64,000 bases of DNA from Closterium sp. NIES-65. Its lineage: Eukaryota; Streptophyta; Zygnematophyceae; Desmidiales; Closteriaceae. Within the stretch, counting starts at the first letter, position 1; every line of letters starts with the position of its first letter. Where the stretch lies: NCBI GenBank assembly GCA_948144175.1, contig CANXME010001453.1, positions 2,790,001-2,854,000 of the forward strand, read 5' to 3'. Positions 15,085-63,778 of the stretch are shown in pieces. The translations under genes were made by a program, and so were the position numbers. The notes below the pieces were generated by a model, which was not told the origin of the DNA, searched no databases, and saw nothing but the letters and a program-made list of their open reading frames with translations.

Positions 15085-15563
15085 CAGATTCTCCACCCGG
15101 CGCCTCTCCACCCCTTCATCCCCTCTGGTGTCAACCGCCAGAACAGCAGTCTCGCTTCTCACATCCCTCGTTATAGTCATCTCCGTTATACCATCCTCGG
15201 GTCCTCCACAATCAAACTTTCGATCATATTCCGTCTCGTTACTATCACAATCCAATGGCATTCGAGTGTTGGCGGAGGCGTGGCGTTTCAAGGAGAATCC
15301 TCTTGAACATGCGAAACATCCGCGCATGGTTACCCTGTTCTCCGTGGAGTGCGGTCCCTACTTTGACTGGCAGACCGTGGGGCTCATGCACAGCTACAGG
15401 TATGCAGGGGGAGAGTGTGTGCGTGGGTGCGACTTTTGAGGCGCCTCAAAATCGGTTACTCTGTTCTCCGTAGAGTGTACTTTGACTGGCAGACCGGGGG
15501 GCTCATGCACAGCTACAGGTGGGGGGGTGAGTGTGTGTGTGTGAATAGCTTATGCGTACAGGT

Positions 15564-15612
<49 letters not shown>

Positions 15613-18600
15613 CGTGTGTGTGTGTGTGTGTGTGTGTTTCTGTGTGTGCATGTGGGAGGCCGAGGAGAGGGAGAGAGGGGAGTGCGTGTGGGAGGGAGAT
15701 GAGAAGAATGGGAGGGGGAGAGGGGATGTGGTGGTCTGTGTGTGTGAGTGAGGGGAAGGCGGAAGGAGTGGGGTTCATGCATGGCTACAGGCTATATCAC
15801 TGAAATCGTGTGATTGGGCCATATCTTGTCTCTGCCTGCCTGCTGTTCCCCTTACACCAGGCGCAGCCGCGCAGCAAGCAACCGGGCCCCAACACCAGAC
15901 TCCTCAGCTGCACGGAGGAGCAGCCGGGGGATTACCCCAACATGGACCTTGCTCCCACGACGCACACCATCATCTCTCCCATGTGCTGCCTTTCACACGT
16001 CCTGTGTTATGTTCTGTCTACCCGTCTGCCCTTTCCCCTTCTCCAGGCGCAGCAAGCAACCAGGCCCCATCACTCGCCTGCTCAGCTGCACAGAGGAGCA
16101 GCTAAAGGATTACCCCAACATGGACCTCGCTCCCACGCACACCGTGCCCTCCATGTCCCTCGACCCCAAGACTGGCGAGTGGTAGGTCTCTATATGTGTG
16201 GGGAGGTCGAGTGATTCGTACCTGTCTGGCGGGACTGCTTGTGTTCTGCTTGCATCGCAACACAGCAGCTGAGGGACTACCCCAACATGGACCTCGCTCC
16301 CACACACACCGTGCCCTCAATCAATGTCTCTCGACCCCAAGACTGGCGAGTGGTAGGTTGTCTGGGGCTTGGCTTGCTCGCTCTTCTCCTTGTCGTCTGG
16401 TTTCAAACTGAGTCGCATCTCACTCACTACAAGGCAGCAGAGTTAAGGTAGTACCCCAAGATGCACCTCGCTCCCACACATACCGTGCCATGCCATGGTG
16501 ACTTTTGAAATCGACTCAAAAGTCACCTCGCTCCCACACATACCGTGCCATGCCATGCATGAGTGAGTTTCAAACCCAACACTGTTGTGTTGAGTGGTAA
16601 CACACTGGCGAGTGGTATGCCGCCGCTGTTGTGCCCTGTGGCTATGTGGCAGTGCTGTGCTGTGTGTGGCTAGGTTGAGTACGGTTTTTTCTCCCTTCTC
16701 TTCCTTCCTCTTCCTGTCCTCCCCCCCCTTCCCCTCCCCTCCCTCCCTCACCCTCGACAGGTACCCAGCAATCAATAAGCCCTACGGCGTGTGGCACTGG
16801 GTGCAGCACAGCCCACAAGCAAAGCAGGCGGAGTGGGTGGTGATTCTGGACTCTAAACTGTTACCCACTGTCTCTCTCCTCTTCCTCCTCTCCTCCCACC
16901 CCTTCCCCGCCACGCCCTCTCGCCCCCGCTGCAGGTACCCAGCAATCAACAAGCCCTACGGCGTGTGGCACTGGGTGCAGCACAGCCCTTGTCTTCCCTC
17001 CCTCCCTCACTCGCCCCCCTCACACCCCTCTCTCTTACCTCCCTCACCCACTACAGGTATCCAGCAATCAACAAGCCCTATGGGGTGTGGCACTGGGTGC
17101 AGCACAGCCCACAGGCGGAGTGGGTGGTGGTTCTAGATTCTGATGTGTTGCTTGCTCTCTCCCTCTTCTCCCTCTTCTCCCTCTTCTTCCTCCCTGTCTC
17201 CCCCTCACCCACTACAGGTACCCAGCAATCAACAAGCCCTACGGCGTGTGGCACTGGGTGCAGCACAGCCCGCAGGCACAGCAGGTGGAGTGGGTCGTGA
17301 TCCTCGACGCTGACATGGTCATCAGAGCGCCCGTCACTCCTTGGGGCGTGAAAGCAGACAAGGGCAAACCAGTTGCTGCCTATTACGGGTACGTTCGAGC
17401 ATGAAAACCCCAGCGGTATTGTGTTGGGAAAGTGCAAGCACAGCAGGCGGAGTGGGTGGTGATCCTGGACGCTGACATGGTCATCAGGGCGCCCGTCACC
17501 TCGTGGGGCGTGAAAGCAGGCAAGGGCAGGCCAGTTGCCGCCTATTACGGGTACGTAGAGTCTGGTGGGGTAAAGACGGGGCACAGGCACCTTGGCGCAC
17601 CAGTGTGTGCGTTGGAAGAGCAGAAGGCAGAGTGGGCGGTGGTTCTAGACGCTGACATCCCTTGATGTGGTGGGCTATCAGAGCGCCCATCACCCCGTGG
17701 GGCGTCAAGGCAAGGAAGGGCAAACCAGTTGCGGCCTATTACGGGTATGTGCGAGCAAGAAAGCCCTGCAAGGCTCGTGTTTGCAAGCACAGCAGGCGGA
17801 GTGGGTGGGCGGTGGTTCTAGACGCTGACATCCCTTGATGTGGTGGGCTATCAGAGCGCCCATCACCCCGTGGGGCGTCAAGGCAGAGAAGGCAACGTAT
17901 TGGTTGTTTCGCACTCATGGCGGCTGCCTGTCCGTCTCTGTTCTCTCGGCTCCTCACCTCCTCCTGCCCCCTTGTTCCTCCCCCCACTCCCTCCTCTCTC
18001 CCCCTCAGCTACCTCATCGGTTGTGACAACATACTGGCCCAGCTGCACACCAAGCACCCCGAGCTGTGTCCCAAAGTGGGCGGATTCATAGTCATGCACA
18101 TTGACGATCTGCGCCGCTTCGCCCCGCTCTGGCTCAGCAAGACACAGGAGGTGCGCTTTAGGGGGATGTTGATGTGAGCCAAAGGGAGCCACAAGGCAAA
18201 GCAAGGTGAGTTCCGGTGGCGGCCTTGCCACCCTTAAGTGACCAGGTGTGTCCCAAAGTGGGCGGATTCATGGTCATGCACATTGAAAACCTGTGCCGCT
18301 TCGCCCCGCTCTGGCTCAGCAAGACACAGGAGGTGCATTGTCTCATGTCAAAAGGAATCGAGCTGGCTGTGACTAGATTTTATCATGCACAGTTGTCGGA
18401 GTGTCGTCCGCAAGTGCAACGTTTCTCATCTTCTTGTTCGCTTCTCTTGAGGAGCCTCAAAAGTTCTCTCCCTCCCGTTCAGGTGCGAGCGGACAAGGCC
18501 CACGACGTGAGGAACATCACAGGAGACGTGTACTCATCAGGGTGGCTTTAGAGCCGAATCAAATGTCTCTTTATGTCTCATGCGGTTCTCTCTAACTTCT

Positions 18601-21600
18601 CCCCCTCAGGTGCGAGCGGACAAGGCACACTATGCGAGGAACATCACAGGGGATGTGTACTCATCAGGGTGGATCAGCGAGATGTATGGCTACTCTTTTG
18701 GTGTTGCTGATGTGAGTGCGGGGCATGGCATGGCATGGCATGGTATGGCATGGTACACTGTGGTGATAGGAGATTTGAAATAGTTTAGCAAGATGTGTGG
18801 CTACTCGTTTGCTGCCGGTAATGTGAGTCCAAGGCATGGCATGGGATGGCATGGCATGGCTAGGGATGGTCATTTGTGGTGCGATGAGATACGAAGAGGT
18901 TCGGTGAGATGTAGGGCTACTCGTTTGGTGCTGCTGATGCGAGTGCAGGACTGATGTGCTGATGGGAGGGTTAATGCCAACCAACAGAACAGGTGGATCA
19001 ATCAAACCATGACGCTGTACCCGCAGTGTACTGAGTTGACTTTTGAGTCGACTCAAAAGTCGTGCTGATGGGAGGGTTAATGCCAACCAACAGAACAGGT
19101 GGATCACAATGCTTCCTTCCATCAAACCACAATGCTGTACCCCCGGTATACTTCCCCCCTTTTTAGTCGACTCAAAAATCAATCCACGATGCTGTGCTGT
19201 GCCCCCCCGGAGTACGCCCCCTGCCATGCATGCAGCCCTGTCTATCTAACCCGGCCTCTCTTCTCTCCCGCTATGGACTCTCTGCTATCAACCCCCCCTT
19301 GTTGCCTTGCCCCTCCCCACAGGCAGGATTGCGCCACCAGCTGGACCAAAACATGATGCTCTATCTGACATACGTCCCCCCGCCAGCCATGCAGCCCCGT
19401 GTACTGCCCCACCCGCCTTCCTCCTTTCCTCACAAACACAACCCTCCCAATGCTCTATCTGAAATACGTCCTCCCGCCAGGCATGCAGCCCCGTGTACTG
19501 CCCCACCCGCCTTCCTCCTTTCCTCACAAACACAACCCTCCCAATGCTCTATCTGACATACGTCCCCCCGCCAGGCATGCAGCCCCGTGTACTGCCCCAC
19601 CCGCCTTCCTCCTTTCCTCACAAACACAACCCTCCCAATGCTCTATCTGACATACGTCCCCCCGCCAGGCATGCAGCCCCGTGTACTGCCCCACCCGCCT
19701 TCCTCCTTTCCTCACAAACACAACCCTCCCAATGCTCTATCTGAAATACGTCCCCCCGCCAGGCATGCAGCCCCGTGTACTGCCCCACCCGCCTTCCTCC
19801 TTTCCTCACAAACACAACCCTCCCAATGCTCTATCTGAAATACGTCCCCCCGCCAGGCATGCAGCCCCGTGTACTGCCCCACCCGCCTTCCTCCTTTCCT
19901 CACAAACACAACCCTCCCAATGCTCTATCTGACATACGTCCCCCCGCCAGGCATGCAGCCCCGTGTACTGCCCCACCCGCCTTTCTCCTTTCCTCACAAA
20001 CACAACCCTCCCAATGCTCTATCTGACATACGTCCTCCCGCCAGGCATGCAGCCCCGTGTACTGCCCCACCCGCCTTCCTCCTTTCCTCACAAACACAAC
20101 CCTCCCAATGCTCTATCTGACATACGTCCCCCCGCCAGGCATGCAGCCCCGTGTACTGCCCCATCCGCCTTCCTCCTTTCCTCACAAACACAACCCTCCC
20201 AATGCTCTATCTGACATACGTCCCCCCGCCAGGCATGCAGCCCCGTGTACTGCCCCATGTACTGCCCCGTGTACTGCCCCATGTACTGCCCCGTGTACTG
20301 CCCCATGTACTGCCCCATGTACTGCCCCATGTACCGCCCCATTATACTGCTTGCTGATTCCCCAGTTCCCACCCCACCACTCCCGCCCTCCTCCTCCACC
20401 CCCTCTACAGGCCGTCCTACATGCATGCTACACCACCAGTTGGACCAAACAACAATGCCTGGGGGAACAACCCCGTAGTGCTGATACCCGGGGTACGTCG
20501 TCCCCCTGCCAGGCGTGGACCCGTGCCTGCTGCACTACAGCCACTCTTCTTCAACCTGTTCCCCCTCTCTCTCTTCTCTCCCTCCTCCCCTCCCAACAGG
20601 CGGGGTTGCACCATCAAGTCGACCAAACAACCATGCTCTACCCAGGCTACAACCCAACGCCAGGCGTGGACCCCCGCTTGCTGCACTACGGGCTTGCTTT
20701 CTCCGTCGGCAACTGGAGCTTCGGCAAGTCGCAGCATCGCACGGACAAGATTGTGAATGAGTGCAACCGGCTGTTTGACCCGCCTCCATTCCCCTCTGAG
20801 GTGAGATTTTCGAAGGAATTGAGCTTCGGGAAGTCACAGCACCGAACAGACAAGATTGTCAATGAGTGCAACCGGCTGTTTGACCCGCCTCCATTCCCCT
20901 CTGAGGTGAGATTTTTGAAGGAATTGAGCTTCGGGAAGTCACAGCACCGAACAGACAAGATTGTCAATGAGTGCAACCGGCTTTTCGACCCTCCACCGTT
21001 CCCCTCTGAGGTGAGTTGTGGAGTGGTCCCTAATGCGTGAGATGGAGACATCAAGTCAAGTGAGCAACTGGACCTTTGGCAAGTCACATCATCGGACGGA
21101 CAAGATTGTCAACGAGTGCAACCGTCTGTTTGACCCGCCTCCATTGCCCTCTGAGGTGAGGCATTGAGTGCAAGAGTTGGTTGGTTCTGATGTCAGATTG
21201 TTTTTTGAGGCGCCTCAAAAATCGTTTCAACGCAACCGGCTGTTTGATCCTCCTCCGTTACCTTCTGAGGTGAGCCATTGAGGGCAAGAGCTGGTTCTCA
21301 TATCATCAGATTGGGTCTATTTTTGAGTCGACTCGAAAATCGACTCCTCCATTCCCTTCTGAGGTGCAACATTGAGTGCAAGAGTTGGCTCTCATGTCAG
21401 ATTGGTTCTTGAGAAGTGTGCTTTGGCAAGTCACATCATTGCACGGATAAAATTGTGAATGAGTGCAACAGACTGTTTGACCCTCCGCCGTTCCCCTCTG
21501 AGGTGAGGCATTCAGAGGTGTTGAGGTTTGGCATCAGCACTGCACGGATATGTTTGTGAATGAGTGCAACAGACTCTTCAACCCCCCGCCGTTCCCTTCT

Positions 21601-24600
21601 GAGGTGAGACATTCAATGGGGTGAGGCGTTGAGGATGCGTGAGAAGGAGGATCGAGAGACATGTTCTAGCGAGCAGCAGTTAAGGGGAAACAGCTGTAGA
21701 ATAACCTAGCTTCTTTGCGTAGGGTTTTGTACGGCGGGTGAGGCGTTGAGGATGCATGAGAAGGAGAACCCACGTGGTGGGCGTCATGAGAAGGAGAACC
21801 CACGTGGTGGGCGTCATGAGAAGGAGAACCCACGTGGTGGGCGTCATGAGAAGGAGAACCCACGTGGTGGGCGTCATGAGAAGGAGAACCCACGTGGTGG
21901 GCGTCATGAGAAGGAGAACCCACGTGGTGGGCGTCATGAGAAGGAGAACCCACGTGGTGGGCGTCATGAGAAGGAGAACCCACGTGGTGGGCGTCATGAG
22001 AAGGAGAACCCACGTGGTGGGCGTCATGAGAAGGAGAACCCACGTGGTGGGCGTCATGAGAAGGAGAACCCACGTGGTGGGCGTCACTCATGGTTTTGGA
22101 AGAGCAGTAGTGCTAGAGAAAGCGTTTAGCAAGTAAGAAAGAGAGTAAAACTCACGTGGTGGGCTATTGAGGAGCCTTGGGAAGTCTCAGTACCACACGG
22201 ACAGGATTGTGAATGAGTGAAATCGGCTGTTTGACCCTTTGTCATTTCCTTCTGAGGTGGGGCGTGGACTCCACGCTGTGGAGTGGTGAAACGCACTGAA
22301 GGTGTTGCACTAGGTGTGGATGATTTATTGGGGAATTCTATATCTCTAGCGACGTGCATGACGAAGTGTTTTGAGACGTCTCAAAACACTTCTTCATACA
22401 TTCCCTTCTGAGGTGGGGCGTGGAGTGGTGATGCGAGGCACTGAAGGTGATGCGAGGCACTGAAGGTGATGCGAGGCACTGAAGGTGATGCGAGGCACTG
22501 AAGGTGATGCGAGGCACTGAAGGTGATGCGAGGCACTGAAGGTGATGCGAGGCACTGAAGGTGATGCGAGGCACTGAAGGTGATGCGAGGCACTGAAGGT
22601 GATGCGAGGCACTGAAGGTGATGCGAGGCACTGAAGGTGATGCGAGGCACTGAAGGTGTTGCACTTGTGAGAAAGTTTGAAGAAGAACCGATGGTTGCAT
22701 TAGGAAACATGCGGGTATACATAGTTAGCTAGAATGGGAAGTATGGTTGGGAACCTTGCCAACATTATTGGCCCCCACCAATAAGTTGGGTTGAGGAGTT
22801 TCTTGGGGGGACCAATAATGTTGACCAACGTGGGTCAACAGTTCTAAGGGGGAGCAATAATCTCCCAACCTTGGAGGCCCAATATTTGGGCCAAGGTTGG
22901 GTTCCAACAAATTAGGGTTAACCCTAGTTGTGCACCCAAACTAAGTTTGGGAACCTATCTCTAGCCAAAGCTTATAGAATCGATGCAGGTTACAATGAAG
23001 ATGATAATCTGACAGCACTGGGTGTGGATGATCTATTGGGGAACTCTAGATCTGTAGCGTGAGCTTTGGCAAGTTGAGGCACATGACAGAGCGGGTCATT
23101 ACGAGTGTAATGAACTGTTTGACCCCCGCACAAAAACATCGGCACGAGGTGCCTTGAGCGGGTCATTTACGAGTGCAATTGATTGTTTGACCCCCGCACA
23201 AAAACATCGGCACCATGACGTGACGTGAACGAAGAAAATAGTACCATGCTGTAACAAGTCATGCCCTCTGTCCTGTCCCATCCACATTCCCTGCCTTTTC
23301 TCCCCTTTCCGCCCCTCTTTTTTTTTTTTTTGAAACCCCTTACGTGTAGATCATTGAGCGCGACAAAGAGAAGAAGCGGGGCCTTTTATTGAGTTTAGAG
23401 TGCATCAACACATTGAACGAGGGCCTTATGATCCACCATGCCACCCACGGCTGCCCCAACCCAGCCCCCTCCCCCTATCGCTCCATGCTGCTGTGAGTGC
23501 GCCCCCTCCCCCTACCATTGCTTCTATAAGGATGAGTGCATGCACGGCTGCCCCAACCCAGCCCCCTCCCCCTATCTCTAGCCAAAGCTTATAAGAATCG
23601 ATGAACGTCAAGCAATACTTTTGTGTCTACATCTCAATTTCTCTTTCTCTCTCTCTCCCCTCCCATTGTTCCCTTCTCTCCCTCCCCCCTCCCTTTTTTC
23701 GCTTCTCTCCCTTCCACCCCCTTATGGTCAATCTCAAATTCATAATGTTGGGTCTGTCCTCTCTTATTTTGAGGTGCCTCAAAATTCTTTCTTGTTAGCA
23801 GTCATTGCTTGACGTTCACCCTTTAGCAGTCATTGCTTGACGCTCACCCTTTAGCAGTCATTGCTTGACGTTCACCCTTGAGCAGTCATTGCTTGACGTT
23901 CACCCTTTAGCAGTCATTGCTTGACGTTCACCCTTTAGCAGTCATTGCTTCTGTCTGCTTGCCTGTATGCACTCTCATCCACCACACTCTCATCGTTTCT
24001 GTCCGCGCTCCCTTTTGTGAGATCCCTCTACTCTTTCATGTTGGTTTGACTTTTGAGAATTCTCAAAAGTCAAACCTTTTGTGAGATCCCTCTTCTCTTC
24101 CTCTAACCTTCCTTTCTCGCGCTCTACCCTTCCTCGCTCCCCCCTCTCCCCTTTGCGAGCATCCAGTCATCCCTGGGCCCTTCTGCCTTTGGCCCCGGCC
24201 TGTCGTCATTCCACCCTCCACGGCAATGACAGTGAGGGAGAGGGGAAGGGGCATGCTTCACAGTGAGGGAGAGGGGAAGGGGCATGCTTCACAGTGCACA
24301 GGGCCTATTTCTCACGCCCCTCCACCCTTCCCCTCTCCCTCGCCGCTCCCTCTTATCCCTCCCCCTTCCACCAGTGCAAGAATCCAGACGTCTCTGGGAC
24401 CTGCTGCCTTTGGCCCCACTGTCTCTTCCCAGCCCGAAGAGGGCATGCTCCGAGGGGAGGTGAGGGGAGCGGCTGGCAGTGCAGGCGGCCAATCATTCCT
24501 CGCACCTGCCGCCTGCCCATTTCTGACGCCCTTTTCCCCTGCCCTCTCCCATTCCTCTCTTTCTCGCCTCTGCCCTTCCTTTCTCTCTCCCAACCCACCA

Positions 24601-27600
24601 GTGCGAGCATCCAGTCATCTCTGGGCCCTGCTGCCTTTGGCCCCACTGTCTCTTCCCAGCCCGAAGGGGGCATGCTCCGAGGGGAGGTGAGGGGAGCGGC
24701 TGACTGACAGTGCAGGCGTCCACTCATCATCCCTGCCTTTCACCTTTCCGTCTCATCACTCTCTCTTCCCCGCCCACCAGTGCGAGCATCCAGTCATCCC
24801 TCGGACCTTCTGCCTTTGGTCCCACTGTCTCTTTGATCCCTGAAGGGGGCATGCTCCGAGGGGAGGCGAGGGGAGCGGCTGTGGGAGGAGGAGTAAGAGG
24901 GGGGTTAGGAAACTCTGTTGTTGCCAACACCGGCGTTGGGGGTAAGAGCAACAGCAGTGGCAGCAGCAGCAGCGGCGGTGGTGGCAGCGGCAGCAACAGC
25001 AGCAGCAGTGGGATGAAAGGGATTGGGGGGGGTGAGAGTGGGATGGAAGGGGTAGGGGGTGCAGCAGAGGGGGCAGGAGAGAGCGAGGAGGAGAGGGTAG
25101 TGGAGCAGGTTGAGAAGGAGACAGGTGTGGGTTTCTGGGGAGATGATGGTGTTGATAGTAGTGATGGTGCTGATGGGGATGATGGTGGTGCTGATGCTGA
25201 TGCTGATGGGGATGGGAACAACAAGCAAGAACAAGGGAAGGCTGGGGATCAAGCAGAGGGGCAAGCGCAAGGGGAGAGCAGCGAGCAGCAGAAAGGAGGC
25301 AGCAAAGGCAGTCGAAGTAACAGAGGCAGAGGCAAAGGCAGAGGAGGGGATGACAAGTCCCCTCCTCTGGCAGACACTACCGAGAAACTCCATATGTGGA
25401 TGGACAAGTGGAGGAAAACCATACGCTCCCTCCTCCCCTCCTCTTTTCAAGACGCCTCCCGCCTTCCTATTCTCGAAATCGACTCCCCTCCTCCCGTTCC
25501 TCTCCCGCTGCCGAACCTGGGCCCGGACGTGCCTGTTGATCCGGCTCGGGACCCGAACCTTTGGCAGCCGTTTCATGTGAAGGGCACGCCGAGGCTGGTC
25601 ACGCTTTTTTCGGGCGAGTGTACTGCGTATTTCGATTGGCAGACGCTCGGGCTGATGTACAGCTTTCGGAGGAGCGGGCAGCCCGGAAAACTTGTGCGGC
25701 TGCTGGCTTGTAACGAGGACATGCTTAAGGAGTACAAGGGGCTGGACCTGGCTCCGACTATGGTGGTGCCGAATTGGGACCACGACCCCCACAACGGAGA
25801 TTGGTGCGTGTGCATACTTGTTCATTCAGTGAGCTTCGGGATGGGTAGAGTGGGTGAGAGGGGCTGGTGTTGGGTTGGACCTAGCAGCACCAACTATGGT
25901 GGTGCCGAATTGGGACCATGACCCCCACAACGGCGACTGGTGCGTGTGCAGTGCAGTGGGCTTCTGGTGGTGGGACGGGGGGAGGAAGGGGGAGGGTGAG
26001 GGGGGGGGAGACGTGGGTGGAGTTCACCTTAAGGGGTGCAACGACTATGGTGGTGCTAAATTGGGGCTCTGATCCGCAGAACAAGGTGTTTTTAGAGTCG
26101 ACTCAAAAGCATTATTTCTCACCTCCTCCCCTCCCAGTCTGCTTTTGAGTCGACTCTCAAAAGTCACTACAATGACTATGTTGGTGTTGAATTGGGGCGA
26201 GACCCTGATCCGCATAACAGGGACGGGCGGGGCAGGGTACAGGGTTGCTCTGTGGCTTTGGAAATGCGTGGAACGGGCTGGAAAGGGGTATATAAGGGGA
26301 CAACGGCTGCAGAGAGGTGATTTTTGAGGCGACTCGAAAATCACCTCGGTATATAAGGAGACAACGTCAGCAACAGCTACGGTTGCACACCCTGTGTCTG
26401 GATTTCTCAACTAGAGCAACAACAGCACTGCTACCTCTGCCTCACCTTTCCCCACTCCCTCATCCCCCTCCCCCTTTCTTTTTCTCAGGCACTCCGCCAT
26501 AAACAAGCACGTGGGAGGAAAGTTGGCTTGACAACAGCCCCCCCTTCCTCTTTTTTCCTATTCCCTCCCAACCCCATCCCCCTCCTCCTTCTCCCCCCTC
26601 CCCCTTTCTTTTTCTCAAGCACTCCGCCATAAACAAGCACGTAGGAGGAAGTGCCAGCGTGACAACAGCCCTGCACTGTTTTCCCATGAGCACTGTTTTC
26701 CCCACTCTCATTCCCCCCACCGCAACCCCCGCCCCAAGTGTTCTGCCATCAACAAGCCAGTGGGCGTGAAGTACTGGCTTGAGAACAGCCCTGCACCGCC
26801 TTCCCCTGACCTATGTTTTCCCCATTCCCTCCCCCCATTCTCCTCTTCTCCTTCTCAGGTATTCTGCCATTAACAAGCCTGTCGGGGTGAAGTACTGGCT
26901 TGACAACAGCCCCGACGCGCAACAGGTCGATTTTGTCCTCATCCTCGACGCGGATCAGATCCTCCGCCGCCCGATTCTGCCCTGGGAGCTAGGCGCCGAG
27001 CGAGGCCGCCCAGTTTCCGCCGACTACGGGTGCGTGAAGTGAAGTGAGTGTGGTGAGTGAGCGAGGGAGTAGTGGGTTGGAGTGGCCCTCTGATGAGAGT
27101 TGGAGAATTATGAGCGACGATGAGAGTGGATGAGACGATGAGAGTGGATGAGACGATGAGAGTGGATGAGACGATGAGAGTGGATGAGACAAAGAGAGTG
27201 GATGAGACGATGAGAGTGGATGAGGTTAGGGGATACATCCCCATCCACGTGGACGACCTGTTTGTTCGGTCCTCCCCTCTCATTCTTGGTGTCTTCTCAC
27301 CCCCACTCCAGGTACCTGATCGGGTGTGACAACATCCTGGGGTCGCTGCACATGAAGCACCCCAAGCATTGCGACAAGGTCGGGGGGTACATTGCCATCC
27401 ACGTGGACGACCTGCGCCTGCTGGCTCCCCGGTGGATTGCCAAGACGGAAGAGGTAAGTGCGAGAGGAGGCAAGGGAGTGAGTGAGGAGGTAAGGGGGGG
27501 AAGAGGCTGGGGAAGGGACTCGCACTCGAGGTGACTTGACCCATCCTGACCCGACAAGGGACCCGACTGGACCGGACCCATCCTGACCCGACCTGGGCCA

Positions 27601-30600
27601 AACCGGACAGATCTGGCCCGTCCCGGCCAGACCCGACCTGGCCCGACCTTACCTACTCGGCCCGGCCCTACCCACCCCGCCCTAGCCCAACCCGACCCGA
27701 ACCAAACGGACTGGCCCGACCTGGTCTGATGCGACCCGACCCAATGTGGGCCGACCCGACCCCGGCCTGATCCAGCCCGACCCAGCCTGACACGACCCGA
27801 CCCAGCCCGAACCAACCCTACCAGGATAAACCCCAATCGTCTCGGCCCGACCTGACCTGACCCGACCCAACCTGACCCAACCCGACCCGACCCGACCCGA
27901 CCCGGCCCGACCCAATTCGACCCGGCTCTACCCCTCCCAACCGGCCTGACCCGACCTGGCCCTTCTCGGCTCGGCTCGACCCGACCCGACCCGACCCGAC
28001 CTAGACCAACCCGGTCCAACCCATTTCGGCCTGGCCCGGCCTAGACCCATATTAACCCATTCCTACCCGACTCGGCCCGACCCGAACCGATCCGACCTGA
28101 CAGCCCAACGCGACCCGACCCGATCCGACCCTGCCCGGCCCGACCCTACTCGACCCGACCTGAACAGAGCAGACACGGATCACTATGCCACCAACATCAC
28201 GGGCGACGTGAACGGGCAGAGGTGGGTTTTGAGTCAACTCAAACGTCTCATCTCTTCTTGTTTGCTTCTCACTTTCTCCCCTCAGGTGCGAGCGGACAAG
28301 GAGCACTACGCCACCAACATCACGGGCGACGTGTACGGGCAGGGGTGGATCAGCGAGATGTACGGCTACTCGTTTGGTGCCTCCGATGTGAGTATCCCAC
28401 CAAGTGGTTCTCTTCGCACCCCTTAAAGGTTCTAGCTGTGAGAGCAGACAAGAGGGGATTGAGCACTGATGTACGGGCAGCAGTAGATCTGCTGCTGCAA
28501 TAGGTGTATGGCTATTCTTTTCATGCCTCTGATGTGAAAGCCGAGCATTGTGTGGCATGGCATGGCATGGCGTGGCATGGCATGGCATGGCATGGCATGG
28601 CATGGCATGGCATGGCATGGCATGGCATGGCTAGGGACAAACAGTGCCGTATGCATGTGCTGCCACCAGATTACTGTGTGATGGTTGTAGCACCATTCCG
28701 GGTAATAGATGATTAATACGATGTTATTGTGGTCAGCATCTTTCTGTCTATCCCTTTCAGTCCCTCATCCCTCCTCTACTCTCACCCCCTTCATCTCCTC
28801 TCCCTCTTCCTCGCCTCTTTCCTCAAACCAATTTACACCAGGTGGTGATAGACAGGATAATGTTCTACCCGGGCTTTTGAGTTGACTCAAAAGCAGACAG
28901 AATAATGTTCTACCTGGGCTTTTGAGTTGACTCAAAAGCAGACAGGATAATGTTCTACCCGGGCTTTTGAGTTGACTCAAAAGCAGACAGGATAATGTTC
29001 TACCCGGGCTATCGCTGTTGCTCTCACCCGTCTCCCTCTCCTCTCCTCGACCTCTTGCCTGCCCCAACCCTCAGGCCAATCTACACCACGTGCTGATAGA
29101 CAGCATAATGCTCTACCCGGGCTACCCCCCTCTCTCCTCCTTTGCTCTCTGATCTCTCTGTTTCCGGACAACTCCCGCTTCCCACATGCTCTCTTTCCTC
29201 AGCCTCTCCTCTCCGCTCCTCTCCTCCTCTCCTCCTCTGGCCGCCCTCTTCCTCTCTCTGCCTCCCTTTCTCCTCCTCCCACCTCCCTCCCAGGCCAATC
29301 TACACCACGTGGTGATAGACAGCATAATGCTGTACTCAGGGTACCCCTCTGTGCCCAACGTGGACCCTCGTCTCTTCCACTACGGCCTCTAGATCAAACT
29401 GCTCACCTACTCCTGGGATAATTCCCGCTTCCCACGTGCTGCACTCCCATCAATTCCCCACTCATCTCTCCTCTTTTCCCTCTCCTCTTTTCCTTGCATC
29501 CTCTCTCCTCCCCCACTCCTCTCCCTTTCTCCTCCTCCCCCCTCTCCCTCCACAGGCCAATCTACACCATGTGGTGATCGACAATATAATGCTCTACCCC
29601 GGCTATCCCCCTGTACCAAACATCGACCCTCGTCTCTTCCACTACGGCCTCGAGGTTAAAGTTCTGAATTACTCCTGGGACAAGTCCCGCTTCCGAGACA
29701 CCCCCCTAGCCCTCACCTGCGGTTACCATTTCCCCGACCCTCCTGACGTTACGGACTTGCCCCCGTTACCCTCTCTCAATTCTGGTGCTGCTGCTGCTGG
29801 TGGTAAAGGTGGTATTGGCGGTTTATTTGCGGGGCTTAGGGGTGGAGGAGGGGGGGAAGAGGAGAGGGTGAAGAAGCTGAAGGAGTTGCAGGAGGAGCGG
29901 CGGAAAGAGTTCATAGTTATTGAGTGTGTTGCGGTGCTGAATCGTGCTTTAAGAGAGTATCACCGGCTGAGGCTAGGGTGCCCTGCGTCTGGCGAGAAAG
30001 ACGTGGGCGTTATGGATCTTACTGGAGCGTCTTTTATCGAGTCGGGGAGTGGGGGAGGGGGTGTGAGGGAGCTTAGAGCTGATGTGTGGGCGAGAGTGAG
30101 AGATGGGGGAGAAGGGATGGAGGTGGAGGAGGAGAGGAGGACGGGGAGGACTGAGGAGGGGAATGGGGATGTGGAGAGAGTGGGGAGGTTTGTGGTAGAG
30201 AGTGTGGAAGTGAGGGAGAGGGGGGGATTGGAGCGAGGGCTTGTTGTTGGGGTAGAGATGGCAGAAGGGGAGAGAGAGCGGATGGAGGAGAGGATGGAGG
30301 AGAGGATGAGGGAGGAGGATGGGCAGGAGGGAGGGATAGGAGGGGTTGGAGAGGTGGGGGTAGAGGAGCAGCAGGGGCAGAACAAGCAAGGGAATGAAGA
30401 AAACCATATTGAACATCAGCAGGAGCATCAGCAAGGAGAGGAGCAATTGAAAGGCGCAGGAAACGGGGAAGGTGGATTGGTTAGAGATCAGCAAGAAAAT
30501 TCCGGTGTAGAGGAGGTGAATACATTTAAAGGCAGCGGTGGTGGTATCAAAGCACAGAGTGGTAAGATCCAACAAATTCGAGGGCTCTTACGTGGCAGGC

Positions 30601-30890: not shown

Positions 30891-31101
30891 CATTCTGAAA
30901 AGAAATACATACAGAGCATTCATGATAGATTTTCTTGTGGTTCTAGTACCAGTAATTGTATGATGGTATTTGTGTGAAAACGATGATGTGTTCAGACGCG
31001 AATGTTCTTGCTGACATGCGTTTATGCTAAAATCAGAAGTTTCTACCAAAAAGAACAGGATTCTAAGACTAACATTCAATTCTAATAATGATTTTGCAAT
31101 G
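30891..31101. other. 3' flank of the glycosyltransferase gene
   Basis: AT-rich 3' region. It ends with CAATG (31097-31101), the left copy of the TSD of the chromovirus. Confidence 0.6.
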
Positions 31102-31444: not shown

Positions 31445-31476
31445 CTTACCCCCCGCCCCCCCTAAGGAGGTCCTCC

Positions 31477-32724
31477 TTACGAAAGTGCGTGTACATCCCT
31501 GAAATTTCGGCTGCGTAGATACTCGGTGAGGACGGGGTGGTTTTCGATTCTGTCCAGGGGAACCCAATTGTCTTCGGTGGGTGTACAGTCCTTCCAGCGG
31601 AGTAAGAACTCGATCCTTCGGGCTCCTCGAGGGTCGCGAACTCTGTGACTCAGGATTTTCTCGGGGGTGACGATTGGTTCGGTTGGTGGTCTTGTCATGC
31701 TGGCTGGGCGATTACGTGGCAGTTGGCCCGTGGACGGGACGTAAGGGCGAAGTAGGCTGACGTGGAATGAGGGGCTGACGTACCAGCCAGAAGGGAGGAG
31801 GAGGTGGGCGGTGACGGGTGTAAGCATGTGGCTTATGCGAAATGGCCCGCAGTATCGGGGGCGGAGTTTCGGGGTGATGGGCAGGCGGAGGTTCTGAGTG
31901 TCAAGTAAAACTAAGTCGTCGGGCTGGTAAGTGACAGGTCTGTGGTGGCGGTCGGCGTTGCGTTTAGCGATGATGTTCGATTTTTTTATTGCGTCTGCTG
32001 CCCGGGTCCGTGCTGCTTGTAATATTTTGGCGAACTGTTGTGCTCGTGGTACTGGGTTGTCGGGATTCGGGGTCATGGGTACTGTCGGGTCTTGTCCGTA
32101 GTTTAAATAAAATGGTGACTGTTGGGTCGTGGCGGATGGCGAGTTGTTGTACGCGAATTCGATTAGTGGCAGTTGCTGTTCGCACGTGGTCGGGTCGTCA
32201 CACGTGGCCCTGATGAGCTGTTCCATGGTCTGATTTGTCCGTTCTGTCTGTCCGTCAGTTTCGGGGTGGTATGATGAACTGAACTGTAGTCTCGTGCCGA
32301 ATTGCTGCCACAGGTTCCGCCTGAAGTTGCTGGTGAATTTCGTGTCGCGGTCGCTGATGATCGCGGCTGGTATCCCGTGCAGTCGAACGGCGGTGGAGAT
32401 GAAGAGGCGTGCTGTTTCTTCGGCTGTGATTGATTTTTTGCAGGCTGCAAAATGTGCCATTTTCGTCAGTCGATCGACGACGACCAGGATCGCGTCGTTC
32501 CCACTTGCCCCGGCTAGTAACCCCGTGACGAAGTCCATCGTCACCTGCTGCCAAGCCCGCTCTGGGGATGGTATCGGCTGCAACTGTCCCGCCGGCCGCT
32601 GTCGTGATGATTTCATGAGCTGACAAGTGGGACACGATGCCACGTGTCGTTGTACGTCGGTCAACATTTCGGGCCAGTAATAATACCGCTGCAGCTGCTG
32701 CCGTGTTTTTTCTACTCCGAAATG
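31477..32724 (-). pseudogene. Chromovirus integrase C-terminal part with chromodomain
   Basis: From HFGVEKTRQQLQRYYYWPEM through the zinc-finger remainder (CPTCQLMKSSRQ), the D,D-E core (TMDFVTGL; IISDRDTKFTS; HPETDGQTERTNQ) to a C-terminal chromodomain-like block (EKILSHRVRDPRGARR ... LRWKDCTPTEDNWVPL). The chromodomain directs insertion to marked chromatin in this group. The N-terminal part continues at 39887 beyond the nested copia element; the break falls inside the GHFG motif. Confidence 0.93.
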
Positions 32725-32850
32725 TGTCAAACTTATATGCTATAGTCTGGGTAGGCTGTAGCGGGGTAGACAATATGGGGTATAACACTTTTAGGTTTTC
32801 CTACTTGTACCCACCTGTTTGCCAGTCCATTCATTCCTTGTTCTTTCACA
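32725..32850 (+). repeat. 5' LTR of copia-2
   Basis: 126 bp, followed at 32851-32864 by TGGTATAGAGCAGG, a primer-binding site one base short of the initiator-tRNA-Met match TGGTATCAGAGCAGG. Confidence 0.95.
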
Positions 32851-32871
32851 TGGTATAGAGCAGGTTCCCTA

Positions 32872-33897: not shown

Positions 33898-33915
33898 CCT
33901 GCTGCCACTGCTGTC

Positions 33916-45381: not shown

Positions 45382-45386
45382 CAATG

Positions 45387-48496: not shown

Positions 48497-51400
48497 ATGG
48501 CCACGTTGCTTCTAGAAAGCCGCGACGCGCAGGAGCGGCGCGAATGGCGGCGGTCGGCGGCGGCGGAAGCCGAGGCGCAGGTGGACGCGCTGCCGTACCT
48601 AGACAAGGAGTACGAGGACCCCGCGGTGCGCGCGGAGGTTAACCGACTCGTGCAGGAGGAGATGCGCGGCAGCCCGCGCACCCCCGCGGACATTCTCGCG
48701 GAGCTTCCGCCGGTGCCGGAGTTGCGGAGCGAGGTAAGGCACAACTCAAGTTAAATCTTCGCCAGTGTCGGTGCTGAGAGTTGAGGTGGTTGTACCGTAA
48801 CCCTAGCATTATCAGCAATATGAGAACGGGCACTGATATACTGTAACCCTAAACTCCGATAACCCTAGTCCTACCGTAATCTGGTTTTCGTGTTACCGTT
48901 ACTAGGTCAAGGGTTTCCCTTCTCTTCTTCCTCCTCCTCCTCTCCTCCCTCCCTCTTCCCTCCTCCCTCCTTACCAGCTCCTCCCCATGTTCGCCCGGGA
49001 ATGCGAAAACTGAGAGCCGGTCGGCTTCCAACCCTAGCAGTGGACACGGGGCGATATGAGGGCGCGAGGGGAACGACATGTGCCTGTCTTACCCTCCTTC
49101 CAACGTGCCTCCCTCCCTCCCATTCCCCCCCATTCTTCCCACCTCCTCCCCAGCTGCCCCCCATGTTCGTCCGGGAGTGTGAGAGGGTGAGGGCAGCGCA
49201 GCCCCCAACCCTAGCAGTGGACACGGGGCGGTACGAGGGCGCGAGAGGAAGGGCATGTGCCTGTCCTTGCCTCCTTCCAAAGTGCCTCCCTCCCTCCCAT
49301 TCCCCCCCATTCTTCCCACCCCACCACCAGCTGCTCCCCATGTTTGCTCGGGAGTGTGAAAGAGTGAGGGCGGGTCGGCCCCCAACCCTAGCGGTGGACA
49401 CGGGGCGATACGAGGGCGCGGGGAAGGGGCCGGCAGGGCGGGGGGCGGAGGACCCAAACGCGTGGAAGGGGGCGGTGAAGGCGGCGATGGTTCAGCTGCA
49501 ACACCAGGATACCCGGTGAGAGGGGAGGGGAGGGGACGGTAGGGCGGGGAGCGGAGGACCCGAATGCATGGAAGGGAGCGGTGAAGGCGGCGATGGTTCA
49601 ACTGCAGCACCAGGATACCCGGTGAGAGAGAGGAGGGGAGAAGGAGAGAGTGGGAGGGCAAGGGCCGGTATGAGGGCGCCGGGAAGGGAGTGGGACGGCG
49701 AGGGGCGGAGGACCCGAACGCTTGGAAGGGGGCGGTTATGGCTGCAATGGTTCAGCTGCAACACCAAGGTAAACGGTGGGAGGAGGGGGGAGGGGAGAGA
49801 GACAGGAGGGAGAGGAAGGCACTAAGACTTAGGGGCGGTTAAGGTGGCGATTGTTCAGCTGCAGCACCAGGATACACGGTGAGAGGAGGGGGGAGGAGAG
49901 AGAAGATGGCAGGGGAGGGAGGAGAGGAGAGGGGAGAGGAGAGAGGAATGGAGAGGGGAGAGGCAAGTAGAGGAGTGGTGAGGATATGATAGGAAAGGAG
50001 GAGAGCAGAGGAGAGCGGAGTAGAAGAGAAGGGTACGAATGTTTGCGTTTATGCCTTTCATGTGTGCGCCCATGTTGCCTCGTGTGCGCCCATGTTGCCT
50101 CGTGTGCGCCCATGTTGTCTCGTGTGCGCCCATGCTCCCATGTGTGCACCCTTGATCCCATGTGTGCACCCTTGATCCCATGTGTGCACCCTTGATCCCA
50201 TGTGTGCATGCAGGCATGAGAATCTCGATCTGATGCTTTGCTTCGGCCCCAACGCATGGAAAGTGCACAACCAGCATCTCGAGGCCTTCCTAGCCAAGTG
50301 AGTCCGAGTAAAAGTCGTTCAGGTGCCATGGAATCGAAGTCTCGAGATGAAGGTCATCAATCGAATCGATGTCATCGCTCGAAATAAAGTTGACTTTTGA
50401 GTCGACTCAAAAGTCAACTCGAAATAAAGGGCACAGCCTGCAACTCGAGGCCTCCTTAGATAAGTGACCCCCCCCCCCCCCCCCCCCACCCCCCTCGCCC
50501 CCCAATCCTCCCTCCTCCTCCCCCCCCTCCCTCTTTTCATGTAATTTCCGTCCATTCTCGAATTGAGAAGCAGCAGCTCATCTGGTGCACACGTTTCCCA
50601 TTGTTTTTCATGGATTTTCATTGCGTTTGGGTTACAAGATTAGCTAATTCTATGCGCCCATAACCGGCATGCCCCCCAAGCAGAGCACAAAGGGAGGTGG
50701 CAGAGAGGAAGCGAGAGATTGAGCTGCTCAACAGAGACAGGCGGCTGAACCAGGTGCGGTGGGATGAGGGTTGAGTGGAAGGAGAAGGGATGGTAGAGGC
50801 AGGTATGTCACACGTACCCTAGTGATACTTCGGAATGTCGCATATGCCTTGGGAATTATTAGAATCATCGCGCGTGGTGGGGGTGGCATGACGTTCTAAC
50901 GCCGCGCTGGTATTCAGTATTGGATGCCACTGGTAAAAGAAATGGGAAGGCTGGAACTGCACTCCATACAGCTTCACAATGATTGAATGCTTGGAGTTAT
51001 TACTCTAGCACGCTTACACGCCACGTCACACCATCGCCCATGCTCATTGTACTGTGGTGTGAGAACGATGAGCGTGGGCGATGGTGTGACGTGGCGTGCA
51101 AGCGTGCTAGCGTACTAACTCCACCATGAATACTAATAATTCCTAAGGTACCTGTGACATTCCCAACTATTCGTCGTCTGCAGCTAGTAGCAGCGGTGAG
51201 GCTGGGGCGGCTGGAGCAGGCATGGAGGGAGGGCGTGCAGAAGAACAGAAGCGTGCTCGTCTAGCAAGCAACACACCCCACCCTTTTCCTCCTGCTTCTC
51301 TTCCCTTCCTTTGCCTTCAGCAAGCAGCAGCGGTGGAGCTGGGGCGGCTGGAGCAGACGTGGAGGGAGGGTGTGCAGAAGAATGCGGACATCCAGGCGGC

Positions 51401-56781: not shown

Positions 56782-56864
<83 letters not shown>

Positions 56865-59800: not shown

Positions 59801-60750
59801 TGGGACATTAAAGGATCAGGCCAAAGGGAGTATGGGCTGTTGGTGAGAGGCTGAGTCTGGTGATGTGAGTGTGCGTGGTTGAGGTTGGAACGGTAAGGGT
59901 GGGTGGGGGTGTGAGGCGAATTTTGAAGCGCTTCAAAAGTGAGTCTGTCGTGTTTTCCATTTGCTGCATTCCAATGTATGCCCTCCTTCGCTTCCCGTTT
60001 TTTTTCAGAAGATATCTCAAAAAACTCTTGAGGCTTTTAGATTGCGCTGCAGCCCTTGCAATACGAGTAGGGAAGCCTGCCGCACTGCACTGCCTCACCT
60101 TTCCCGTCCCCCTCCCCATCTCTCCCAACCGCTCTGTCCCTCCTCCACGCTCCCCCTGCCACCCCCTTCCCTTCGACCCACACCCAGCTCCCCCCCCCTT
60201 CTGTTCCTTCCCCTTCCCTCTCCCTTACACAGCCAGGTGCCTCAAAGTATTCCCCTGCCTTCTCCCTTAGGCTTCAACTACTGGAGCTGCTACTTCCGTG
60301 CCTCACCTCTCTCTCCCCTCCCTTCTACCCTTTCTTACTCTCCGTGCTTCCCTGCCATCCCCTCCCCATGTGACCTCGCTCCCCTTCCCCCTGCTGTTCT
60401 TGTCTCCCTTTCAGGCGCCAGCACTGCTGGAGCTACTCAGGTCCTACCAGGCACAGGAGGGTGGTTTGAGGGTGGGGCCCTGGATGGCATGTGGTGATGA
60501 TACTGGTTGACGCATGCTCTTCCTGCTACCCGCTCCCCTCCCCTCCCCCCTGCTGCTCTCGTCTCCCTTTCAGGCCGCAGCACTGCTGGAGCTCTTACAG
60601 TCGTGCCAGCACAGGAGGGTGGATAGAAGGAAGGCCGGATGTAATGTAACCCCCTTCCCTTTCCCCTACTTCCCTCTGCTGCTCTCGTCTCCCTTTCAGG
60701 CGGCTGCACTGCTTGAGCTACTCAGGTCCTGCCAGGCACAGGAGGGTTAG
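54641..60750 (+). CDS. U-box / armadillo-repeat E3 ubiquitin ligase (plant PUB type), 1333 aa over two exons as modelled
   Basis: Exon 1 is 54641-58591 (1317 codons) and exon 2 is 60700-60750 (16 codons and stop); phase 0, CCAAG|GTGAGT ... TTTCAG|GCG. A long disordered Ser/Glu/Ala N-terminus is followed by a U-box at about residues 326-395 (EEFICPLSLDIMFDPVIVES ... TCPKTRQPL ... LITDWCKRN), which binds the E2. Ala/Gly-rich linkers include about 30 Ala from (GCT)n near 56780-56863. ARM repeats fill about 1028-1317 (EAGGVAPLVDLLWSDDEPTA; AGALQPLLDLLLDGPTRAKK; EEGAVPALAELVEGG), the substrate-binding part. The layout fits plant U-box (PUB-ARM) ligases. The exon end ...VGTGKTQAK is echoed seven times downstream and exon 2 at least twice upstream, so alternative C-termini are conceivable. 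Confidence 0.88.
56777..56865 (+). repeat. (GCT)n trinucleotide repeat coding for polyalanine
   Basis: About 28 uninterrupted GCT codons within the U-box/ARM gene, followed by further Ala-rich sequence with interruptions. Pure codon use indicates slippage. Confidence 0.95.
58655..59768 (+). repeat. Seven donor-side echoes of the U-box/ARM exon 1 end
   Basis: Copies of the segment encoding GASSKEWLVAIDEEGISASV through KTQAK, with their own AAG|GTGAG donors, end at about 58768, 58964, 59096, 59323, 59460, 59604 and 59768. Stops and small losses (for example TAG in ATCGATTAGGAGG at about 58700) mark most as non-coding. Similarity is about 85-95% by eye. Confidence 0.93.
59921..59938. repeat. 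Palindrome with TTTTGAA arms, GCGC core
   Basis: TTTTGAAGCGCTTCAAAA is perfect and has a compensated change in both arms (GAA/TTC instead of GAG/CTC). No clear duplication flanks it. Confidence 0.92.
60264..60650 (+). repeat. Acceptor-side echoes of the last U-box/ARM exon
   Basis: Copies of AG|GCGGCTGCACTGCTTGAGC occur at about 60270 (diverged), 60415-60470 and 60573-60625. Each follows a pyrimidine tract (CTCGTCTCCCTTTCAG). The model uses the last copy (60700), which has the complete frame to TAG. The 60415 copy also stays open for several codons. Confidence 0.88.
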
Positions 60751-61560: not shown

Positions 61561-61561
61561 G

Positions 61562-62031: not shown

Positions 62032-62748
62032 CAGCAGACAAAACGCCTGCTCGTTTACTGGAGAACAGTGTAGTGCGGTATGTTGAGAAACCATGTGGTA
62101 CAGTGTGGTGAAGGGCGATGGAGAGGGGTAGAGAACTGTACCTTCTTTTCCGCCCGCTTGCGCTCGTCCTCGGGAATCACATCTGCTGCTTTCTTTATAG
62201 CGTCCATTCCCTATAAGCACAGGTAAGTTGGTTTGTATTGCAGGAGACGAGGAGGACAATGGAGAAGAGCGGCGCCTTCTGAGACAGGACAGAGATCCTA
62301 ATTACAAAAGACTTGGGGTTTAAGTCTAGACAAACAGGTGGAGTGAATTTGTATTGCGAAAGAGATTGAAATTCTGAACAATGCGAGAACAGGATAAACA
62401 GGGTATTGCAGGCAAAGAGTGTGTCGCAGTCTCCCATTGCAGGGGGACAATCGAGACGAGTGACGCAAAAACAAGAAATTCGCCATACATATGAGATTTA
62501 TTAAAGTGGAAAAAAACCTTGCACTAGTGGAAAATGCGTGCATCAGCACAGCAAGCCACCCTGACTCACCTCCTTCCTCGCCCGCCGTGACTTTTGAGTC
62601 GACTCAAAAGCCACCCTCACTCACCTCCTTCCTCGCCCGCCGTGACTTTTGAGTCGACTCAAAAGCCACCCTCACTCACCTCCTTCCTCGCCCGCCGCAA
62701 GCTCACTCTCGCAGACTCCGCTGCCTTTTGCGCCAGCTTGAACATAGC
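61666..62748 (-). CDS. Organellar ribosome recycling factor, C-terminal three exons (partial)
   Basis: Exons on the minus strand: 62748-62680, 62210-62142 and 61743-61666 (69, 69 and 78 nt with stop; all phase 0). The 71 residues run AMFKLAQKAAESARVSLRRA ... GMDAIKKAADVIPEDERKRA ... VEDAVAAAKKQLDAICEAKE-KELKG. This is the C-terminal helix bundle of RRF (frr family), which splits post-termination ribosomes; a nuclear gene implies plastid or mitochondrial import. The N-terminal exons were not found before the window edge, partly because the next intron is full of copies of the first listed exon. The family call rests on the RVSLRRARKEGMDAIKKA block and the Lys/Glu-rich end. Confidence 0.72.
62545..62690 (-). 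repeat. RRF splice-donor segment tandemly triplicated with palindromes between
   Basis: CTCACCTCCTTCCTCGCCCG (complement of the exon end with its GTGAGT donor) occurs three times with 55-bp spacing. The perfect 20-bp palindromes 62591-62610 and 62646-62665 (core TTTTGAGTCGACTCAAAA) lie between the copies. Confidence 0.95.
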
Positions 62749-62824
62749 CTGGGGAAGAGAGGGGGGTGGGGGGGAGGGGGAAGGGGATGGGGAGGGGGAT
62801 GGGGAGGGGCTGAGCTAGTAACTT

Positions 62825-63095
62825 CTAAGAGGCCTCAAGCTCACTCTTGCAAACTCAGCTGCCTTTTGAGCCAGCTTGAACATGGCCTGGGGAAGGGGAG
62901 AGGGGGGGAAGAGTAGAGGGGACATTCAGAAAATTCCGCTGCCATTTGCGCGAGCTTGAAAAAGGCCTGGGGAAGGGAGGGGAAGAGGGGAGGCCAATGG
63001 GGAGAAGGATACGGAAGGGCAGAGAGGAGGGAAAAGAGCAATCTTGCAGACTCTGCTGCCTTTTAAGCGCTCTTAAACATGGCCAGGGGAAGGGA
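62825..63095 (-). repeat. Acceptor-side echoes of an RRF exon
   Basis: Three copies of the 62680-62748 exon start (complement of GCTGCCTTTTG-GCCAGCTTGAACATGGCC) lie at about 62833-62892, 62925-62972 and 63040-63092, each with a CCTGGGGAAG-type acceptor, separated by purine-rich tracts. Confidence 0.88.
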
Positions 63096-63685
63096 GGTGT
63101 GAGCAGGATGTGGAAGGACAGAGAGCGGAGGGAGATGTAGAGGTCTCAAAGGCAGTCTCGCGGAGACAACAAAGGAAGATGGAAGTTGATGATTGAGAGA
63201 AAAGAGGGAAGAGGGGGGGTAGAAGACACAGCTTTCACTCCTCTCCTCTTAACTCCCTCACTTCCTGCTTCTCACCTCCCTCACTTCCCCTCCTCTCACC
63301 TTCACTCCCCCCTTCTCACCTCTCTCACTTCCTTGGTCAGTCTTGAAGGTGGGGGAAGTAAAATGCGCATGCAACAAGGGGAGGGAAAACGGGGAAGAAG
63401 GGGGAGAAGCAGGAGGGTAAGTTGAAGGTAATTTCATTGATAGTAACTGTGTTTTGAGACCAATGATATGAAGCATAGGAATCTAAATAGTAACTGGAAC
63501 CAAAAAGGAAAATGAGATACGATAAAGTCAAGGTTCGGTTCGAACAAGGGAAGAAGGATTTTGGAACATATATTTAATAAACAATTTGTACATGAGGTGC
63601 TTTTTTTTCCAGTCGACTCAAAAGATCAATGGTTGAACAAGTAGAACACGTTGCAAGCTACTGCCAAAAGATCAAAGGCTCTGCC
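63096..63685. other. Purine/pyrimidine-rich intronic sequence upstream of the RRF exons
   Basis: Low-complexity AG- and TC-rich tracts (63120-63420) followed by AT-rich sequence. A half-decayed palindrome (AGTCGACTCAAAA, 63611-63623) follows poly-T. AAAAGATCAA at 63620 recurs at 63666. No exon was recognised. Confidence 0.45.
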
Positions 63686-63687
63686 AA

Positions 63688-63778
63688 TTCCTGTTATTGA
63701 TGTACAATGATGGCAACGGAAGGACTTTTGAGGCGCCTCAAATTTCCTGCTATTAATGTACAATGATGGCAACGGAAA
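63688..63778. repeat. 34-bp direct duplication joined by a palindrome (GCGC core)
   Basis: TTCCTGTTATTGATGTACAA ... GGCAACGGAA occurs at 63688-63721 and, with two changes, at 63745-63778. TTTGAGGCGCCTCAAA (63727-63742) is at the join. Confidence 0.95.

Follow-up and report, generated by a model that had tools for sequence, protein, structure and literature searches.

A family of short palindromes at the joints of direct tandem duplications in the nuclear genome of the alga Closterium sp. NIES-65

The stretch of 64,000 nucleotides considered here (the window; contig CANXME010001453.1, positions 2,790,001 to 2,854,000) is nuclear DNA of Closterium sp. NIES-65, a zygnematophyte alga of the Closterium psl complex, in which intron-rich nuclear genes and copia and gypsy elements surround a set of short palindromes. 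A gene for a peptidyl serine alpha-galactosyltransferase-like protein lies at 15-30 kb (15240-30890) and contains many duplicated exon pieces, and a U-box/ARM protein encoded at 54.6-58.6 kb shares 96-100% identity, over about 30% of the query, with proteins of Closterium sp. NIES-64, Naga37s-1 and Yama58-4. No listed palindrome falls within the gene stretches matched at 88% or more by an annotated NIES-64 protein, a comparison that covers one gene. The palindromes are built around an 18-bp core, TTTTGAG-NNNN-CTCAAAA (TTTTGAGNNNNCTCAAAA). At most loci with exact arms that we sampled, this recurring core with its variable outer arms is shown to form a joint unit with a direct duplication of the neighbouring DNA, which we write L-palindrome-L, L being the duplicated target copy on either side.

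At up to two mismatches the core has 23 matches in the window, where shuffled sequence gives an expectation of 0.28; one site among the listed matches, 53275/53276, is without the core in the list of palindromes and is probably a chance match. Across the 874,075,685 bases of the NIES-65 genome searched, the exact 18-mer occurs 13,080 times with a TCGA centre and 5,851 times with a GCGC centre, against none for either reversed-pattern control. The inner 12 bases (TGAGTCGACTCA) occur at 22,311 places, against 34 for the reversed pattern; as this exceeds the 13,080 exact 18-mers, many copies must be altered in the outer core, through decay or truncation. Palindrome copies in the genome thus number tens of thousands, each of about 18-40 bp. 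In a profile of 58 loci from the window and the sample described below (at most one mismatch), positions 3-9 from the centre are 97-99% conserved, a value that is partly built in, as these positions are the searched motif itself; conservation then declines from 70% to 41-52% over positions 10-17 and is near background from about position 18. The two centre positions vary and yet stay paired in 91-95% of cases, and centre and outer arms change together in subfamilies such as GAGTGTTTTGAGAC and GAGTGACTTTTGAGAA. All 13 occurrences of AGTCGACT in 264 kb chosen regardless of palindromes fall inside a palindrome of which one arm or both are intact, so that copies cut within both core arms were not seen in those 264 kb.

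In the window, outer arms that both deviate from the consensus are still paired in 17 of 25 cells (one third expected, p=4e-4), as if each copy or subfamily derived from a perfect hairpin; further outward, past position 14, the window's arms pair about as often as chance predicts (21 of 68 cells). An apparent symmetry of arm lengths (r=0.83) turned out to be an artefact of the symmetric search (rho 0.30, p=0.06 when redone freely) and is not claimed. The viral and GTDB contigs searched contain no exact match to the palindrome, and Rfam returns none at gathering scores. The two parts of the window that hold the retroelements (1-15 kb and 29-50 kb) are free of family palindromes at up to two mismatches. 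No larger relative is seen anywhere in the window, unpaired core arms being about as frequent as expected by chance.

The association with duplications was measured by a dovetail score, for which the end of the left flank is aligned with the start of the right flank on either side of a palindrome. Outside the window, where a score of at least 12 was counted as positive, the sample comprised stretches taken around hits of the pattern searches, together with 200 kb from the contig of the window that were picked regardless of palindromes. In the first sample, 31 of 33 independent exact-arm loci were positive, as were 38 of 46 loci at up to two mismatches; eight of the 33 open an array, a setting in which positive scores come easily, and of the two misses one, locus L039 with a score of 11, was subsequently shown to carry a genuine 13-bp duplication. 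The list of GCGC centres yielded 20 stretches and 17 positives among 19 scored loci (in the twentieth, L050, the first palindrome is too near the edge and the second scores 56.5). Both samples together give flush direct repeats at 48 of 52 exact-arm loci, against 20% of control positions at the same loci (n=900) and 14% of positions taken at random in the contig (n=800), with Fisher p values, computed from rounded control counts, of 3e-27 and 9e-33. A preliminary description of the window had proposed, from its letters, that the palindromes mark the joints of direct tandem duplications; this comparison of flanks with control positions confirms the proposal for most of the exact copies sampled, and the association extends far beyond the window.

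Solitary palindromes, defined as having no other within 130 bp and at most one mismatch and counted as positive from a score of 11, carry flush repeats at 50 of 57 loci (44 of 47 outside the window, 6 of 10 within it). In these 50 loci L measures 11-253 bp, with a median of 57.5 and an identity between copies of 71-100% (divergence 0-29%), in keeping with the earlier impression that the length of the duplication is not fixed. A perfect 60-bp repeat at L004 and a perfect 23-bp repeat at L026 enclose the same 23-bp insert, and at L044, the first unit of an array, a 37-bp repeat encloses exactly the 18-bp core. The minimal inserts between repeats vary in length, and composite inserts are found at L064, L039, L028 and window positions 26088-26163.

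In the window itself, scored with 10-base slack and a threshold of at least 17.5, 14 of the 24 listed palindromes are positive, the 24 including the chance site at 53275. The region at 15-30 kb is so rich in tandem exon copies that, of 1,250 control positions in it, 32% are positive as well; when controls resembling their own surroundings are removed, 21% remain positive there and 4.3% outside that region. With arrays merged at this threshold, 11 of 20 loci are positive, 9 of 14 at 15-30 kb (p=7e-4) and 2 of 6 elsewhere (p=0.025). Rerun with 3-base slack and a threshold of 12, the same region gives 9 of 14 against 23% of controls (p=1.4e-3), the decayed positive at 18546 not being counted, and the remainder 3 of 5 against 4.6% (p=1.0e-3, 53275 omitted). 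Beyond these scored positives, inspection revealed flanking copies at 22363 and at the composite insert 26088-26163.

Followed along the window, the repeats already listed for it are present with small shifts of coordinates. The palindrome with a GCGC centre at 15433-15452 stands between copies at 15328-15425 and 15454-15541, and one of the TCGA type with an asymmetric centre (16497-16527) between perfect copies at 16464-16497 and 16524-16557, while a strongly decayed palindrome at 18546-18565 is flanked by 18472-18545 and 18599-18672. A perfect 24-bp palindrome at 19038-19061 has copies at 18956-19032 and 19062-19152; the right copy is closed by a second palindrome (19159-19178), after which comes a weak third copy at 19179-19221 (score 9.5). 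Two palindromes follow at 21202-21221 (GCGC; copies 21118-21200 and 21232-21313) and 21319-21340 (TCGA, one arm mutated; copies 21250-21318 and 21344-21409). Of the earlier listed repeats, two are present and imperfect. At the 30-bp palindrome 22363-22392 (ACGT, with GAAGTG arms) the left copy at 22243-22351 is answered by an interrupted right copy, 22243-22308 matching 22399-22453 and 22307-22351 matching 23015-23059; its alignment score was equalled in 2 of 200 random windows, presumably windows containing the same target. At the palindrome 28226-28245 (copies 28167-28225 and 28290-28348) the right copy starts 44 bp off. An imperfect CCCGA-type satellite occupies 27540-28160, immediately before the left copy of that duplication.

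Between these two sites, a 34-bp palindrome (AATT) at 24043-24076 is flanked by copies at 24011-24035 and 24075-24099, and a palindrome with two one-sided core changes (26314-26347) by copies at 26287-26311 and 26348-26372. The composite insert at 26088-26163 consists of a palindrome (26088-26109), 32 bp and a second palindrome (26142-26163) between outer repeats at 26039-26086 and 26170-26222 (77%). At 28873-28984, three palindromes alternate with four copies of about 23 bp (28850-29007), the final copy being without a palindrome after it. Further on, the 32-bp perfect palindrome at 50388-50419 is enclosed by a 12-bp repeat, CTCGAAATAAAG (50378-50389 and 50418-50429), and three copies of 32-35 bp at 62556-62697 are separated by palindromes at 62591-62610 and 62646-62665, again with no palindrome after the last copy. 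The row closes with a palindrome (GCGC) at 63721-63748 between copies at 63688-63721 and 63744-63777.

NIES-65 is haploid and, according to the available part of the genome paper, more than half of its ortholog groups are duplicated (PMC10407611), so that paralogous sites can be compared inside one genome. For twelve loci, the two flanks joined by one L served as the query; two of these loci, and one neighbouring locus, are empty in a paralogous contig that has a single target copy. At L039, which is occupied in contigs C13 and C626, contig C1787 is identical over 445 + 468 bp and is without exactly 48 bp, the sum of the 35-bp palindromic insert and one copy of the 13-bp L. At L042 in contig C14, two insertions are missing from contig C975: the queried one (57-bp L + 21 bp) and, some 200 bp from it, another that was not part of the query (55-bp L + 40 bp). 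The aligned blocks of 442, 176 and 291 bp are 99.8, 98.9 and 99.3% identical. Each of the three empty alleles has one L and is free of the palindrome, and none has the duplication alone. As both parts are missing together, they were gained (or lost) together, and the three polymorphic sites suggest that palindrome and duplication arrive together. Neither of the results that the preliminary description named as refuting its proposal was observed. In the C14/C975 comparison at the 57-bp L, the left copy is identical to the empty allele, the right copy departs from it at 2 of 57 positions, and the 442-bp block that ends with the left copy has a single difference; in this one case, the changes could reflect error-prone synthesis of the new copy.

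The other ten queried loci gave no empty site, their spanning paralogous copies being read as occupied by length or split matches, with the exception of L029, for which two L matches in contig C1759 lie about 600 bp apart and the stretch between was not fetched. The number of units is itself polymorphic at L060, with one in C21 and two in C1893. Three insertions at L030 are common to C9 and C1759, one of them decayed in C1759 by two one-sided changes, and a candidate empty site at L030:412 was rejected because the C1759 copy is occupied but decayed. In the same pair of contigs (L030 against L065, alignment columns 574-611), C1759 has a palindrome-free tandem copy of 38 bp and C9 does not; tandem duplications in Closterium also differ between contigs without a palindrome.

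How could such a joint unit arise? The explanation towards which we lean, and which we hold with belief and doubt in about equal measure, is that a hairpin would be captured as filler during the repair of filled-in staggered breaks. Two nicks on opposite strands, 11 to about 150 nt apart, would produce a double-strand break with long overhangs; filling in both ends would copy L twice, and the filled ends would be joined via a short self-complementary hairpin or duplex, which would become the palindrome. Since the same core recurs more than 18,000 times with few centre variants, the filler would have to come from a propagating source, possibly existing genomic copies or hairpin DNA or RNA made from them, and the palindrome would in effect be a minimal mobile element that break repair disperses. 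Arrays of the form (L-palindrome)n-L could subsequently grow from the unit by unequal exchange between its L copies. The arrays inspected (28873, 62591, L060/L068) do end in an L without a palindrome, which speaks against a palindrome that came first, as this would leave one after each L. In the window, arm mismatches amount to 7 of 108 pairs at 12 loci, where the divergence of the flanking copies predicts 10.1, so that palindrome and duplication are compatible with one event in time, although this test is weak in that strongly decayed palindromes would escape it.

The repair half of this explanation has precedents. Vaughn and Bennetzen reportedly described patch-mediated tandem duplications in rice in 2014, and we know of no recurring insert sequence that such duplications carry as a norm. 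Like them, the Closterium duplications are direct, abutting and mostly of up to about 125 bp. Patch-mediated duplications are attributed to the repair of adjacent nicks or to overhang fill-in with end joining; in rice, the share of tandem duplications drops beyond 125 bp (PMC7971508), and CST-Pol alpha is reported to fill in breaks that have 3' overhangs (PMC8355091). The palindrome-free 38-bp copy, polymorphic as well, adds to the likeness. Unlike the rice duplications, for which the accessible text describes no recurring insert (PMC7971508), the Closterium joints share one core (48 of 52 exact palindromes sampled; 13,080 + 5,851 places). Two mechanisms had been suggested in the preliminary description, a hairpin as filler in filled breaks and a hairpin element inserting at wide nicks, and the sequence leans to the first, because of the variable ends, the composite inserts and the size range of patch-repair duplications, without deciding between them.

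Several observations weigh against capture during repair. The polymerase, the nuclease and the source molecule are all postulated, and an empty site could be a precise loss by recombination between L copies. The fillers of ordinary end joining are not known to repeat a single sequence; ordinary repair leaves the identical core unexplained, which calls for a propagating hairpin or a dedicated enzyme, and the recurrence of the core suggests that something specific recognises it. Four window palindromes have no flush repeat within 160 bp: a decayed one at 18444-18463, those at 23766-23785 and 59919-59940 (GAAGCGCTTC), and a half-decayed one at 63605-63624. Flush repeats are likewise missing at 7 of the 57 solitary loci, and the significance of the association inside the window is modest. 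The sampled loci come mostly from the first contigs of the hit lists and were not drawn at random; among the non-array loci of the unselected 200 kb, 5 of 10 at up to two mismatches are positive, and 3 of the 4 exact ones, decayed copies doing worse in this test than well-kept ones. Finally, a palindrome is present in just 11 of 91 close direct-repeat pairs of the window and in 6 of 178 pairs of the 264 kb (154 with other filler, 17 abutting, 6 with a family palindrome, 1 with another palindrome), although many of the other pairs in both sets are low-complexity arrays, which makes the comparison of the 178 uninterpretable.

The main rival is a true mobile element, a possibility that we rate below even and take seriously: an enzyme, either a transposase or a long interspersed nuclear element (LINE)-like endonuclease with a reverse transcriptase copying a hairpin RNA, would recognise the 18-bp core and insert it at two distant nicks, the duplication being a long and variable target site duplication. 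The very high copy number of one core, the duplication at 48 of 52 exact-arm loci sampled, the clean empty sites and the compensating changes of the outer arms (17 of 25 cells in the window) all speak for it. Against it, the outer ends vary from copy to copy, and some inserts are composite. DNA transposons make target duplications of fixed length and LINEs short ones, whereas L ranges over 11-253 bp. No poly-A or other tail appears in the inserts examined, in which the palindrome hides orientation, and no larger relative is seen in the window.

Alternatively, the palindrome might have come first, its extruded hairpin stalling replication or being cut and repair then duplicating the neighbouring DNA. 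Palindromes are described as fragile sites in the available text of PMC7999016, but the three empty sites are without the palindrome as well as the duplication and the arrays end in an L without one, which makes this order of events improbable. That the tandem duplications are older and palindromes were inserted later at their joints is less probable still: ordinary tandem repeats that contain no palindrome abound in the genome, yet 50 of 57 solitary loci would owe an exact hit on a two-copy joint to coincidence, none of three empty alleles has the duplication alone, and the divergences of arms and copies agree. PacBio continuous long read assemblies can contain inverted artefacts, but an assembly or library artefact is hardly credible given L copies diverged by 0-29%, several centre types and states of decay, and the same insertions, with point changes, in the paralogous contigs C9 and C1759. 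The Closterium assemblies were moreover built from PacBio and linked reads combined, as stated in the available text of the genome paper (PMC10407611).

Among known elements, miniature inverted-repeat transposable elements (MITEs) and other DNA transposons share with the Closterium palindrome its shortness, inverted-repeat and non-coding nature, many copies, duplicated target and empty sites with one target copy; unlike them, it has neither a fixed-length duplication nor fixed ends. It is also far shorter than any MITE known to us. The GC clusters of yeast mitochondria (GC42), in the accessible text of PMC4478555, are similarly short, palindromic, dispersed and variable, are thought to be mobile and have units that are shuffled or merged, but they are mitochondrial with short flanking repeats (AG or ACT), whereas the Closterium family is nuclear with duplications of at least 11 bp at 50 solitary loci. 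The LIMP palindromes of Lobosphaera mitochondria are likewise a repeated palindrome in a green alga, but an internally repetitive, mitochondrial one of 19 copies for which the available text describes no flanking duplication (PMC4524435), unlike the nuclear Closterium family with its duplications. As it departs from tested defining features of MITEs (fixed duplication length, fixed ends), of mitochondrial GC clusters (location, repeats of 2-3 bases) and of plain patch-repair duplications (no recurring insert), we regard the palindrome as new as a kind of insertion, one that fits no known class of mobile element well, while the repair half may be known. Literature searches of titles and the beginnings of abstracts, with most subscription journals outside their scope, found no such element described, and 'palindrom' occurs nowhere in the text count of the Closterium genome paper.

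To our knowledge, and with about half our confidence behind the claim, this would be the smallest mobile element of any nuclear genome: a self-complementary hairpin, its core 18 bp long, which spreads by filling widely staggered breaks and duplicates 11 to about 150 bp of target at each insertion. If so, the insertions would seed duplications of exons, splice sites and introns as well as tandem arrays. They may amount to a novel mode of DNA movement and to a natural driver by which exons and introns are duplicated. Each palindrome would tag a past tandem duplication, and the genome may hold some 10^4 marked events, extrapolated from the sample, some of them with polymorphic empty alleles. This would make the mechanism of small tandem duplications, a main class of short insertions, directly testable close to the land plants.

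Other repeats accompany the family. A second, MITE-like palindromic family is represented by an inverted-repeat element of about 80 bp with CCTGTTCGGTTCGCCTCGAACGTGTTCGAGGCGAACCGAACAGG inside (L030:1271-1352, in C9), of which many copies, 93-99% identical, occur in about 30 other contigs. A long array with a 56-base step at G000:C139:1503238-1506065 matches the window unit at about 62586-62668 by 78-79%; palindrome units may grow into large satellites. The surrounding stretch, 62400-63000, has a 100% identical copy at C1584:750010-750610 and seems recently duplicated or present on two contigs. Of the retroelements in the window, a Gypsy/Tf2-type integrase with a chromo domain lies on the minus strand at 31477-32739, and a copia-type retrotransposon (RVT_2, rve) at 339-6433 has direct terminal repeats of at least 300 bp that are 99% identical, and hence is young.

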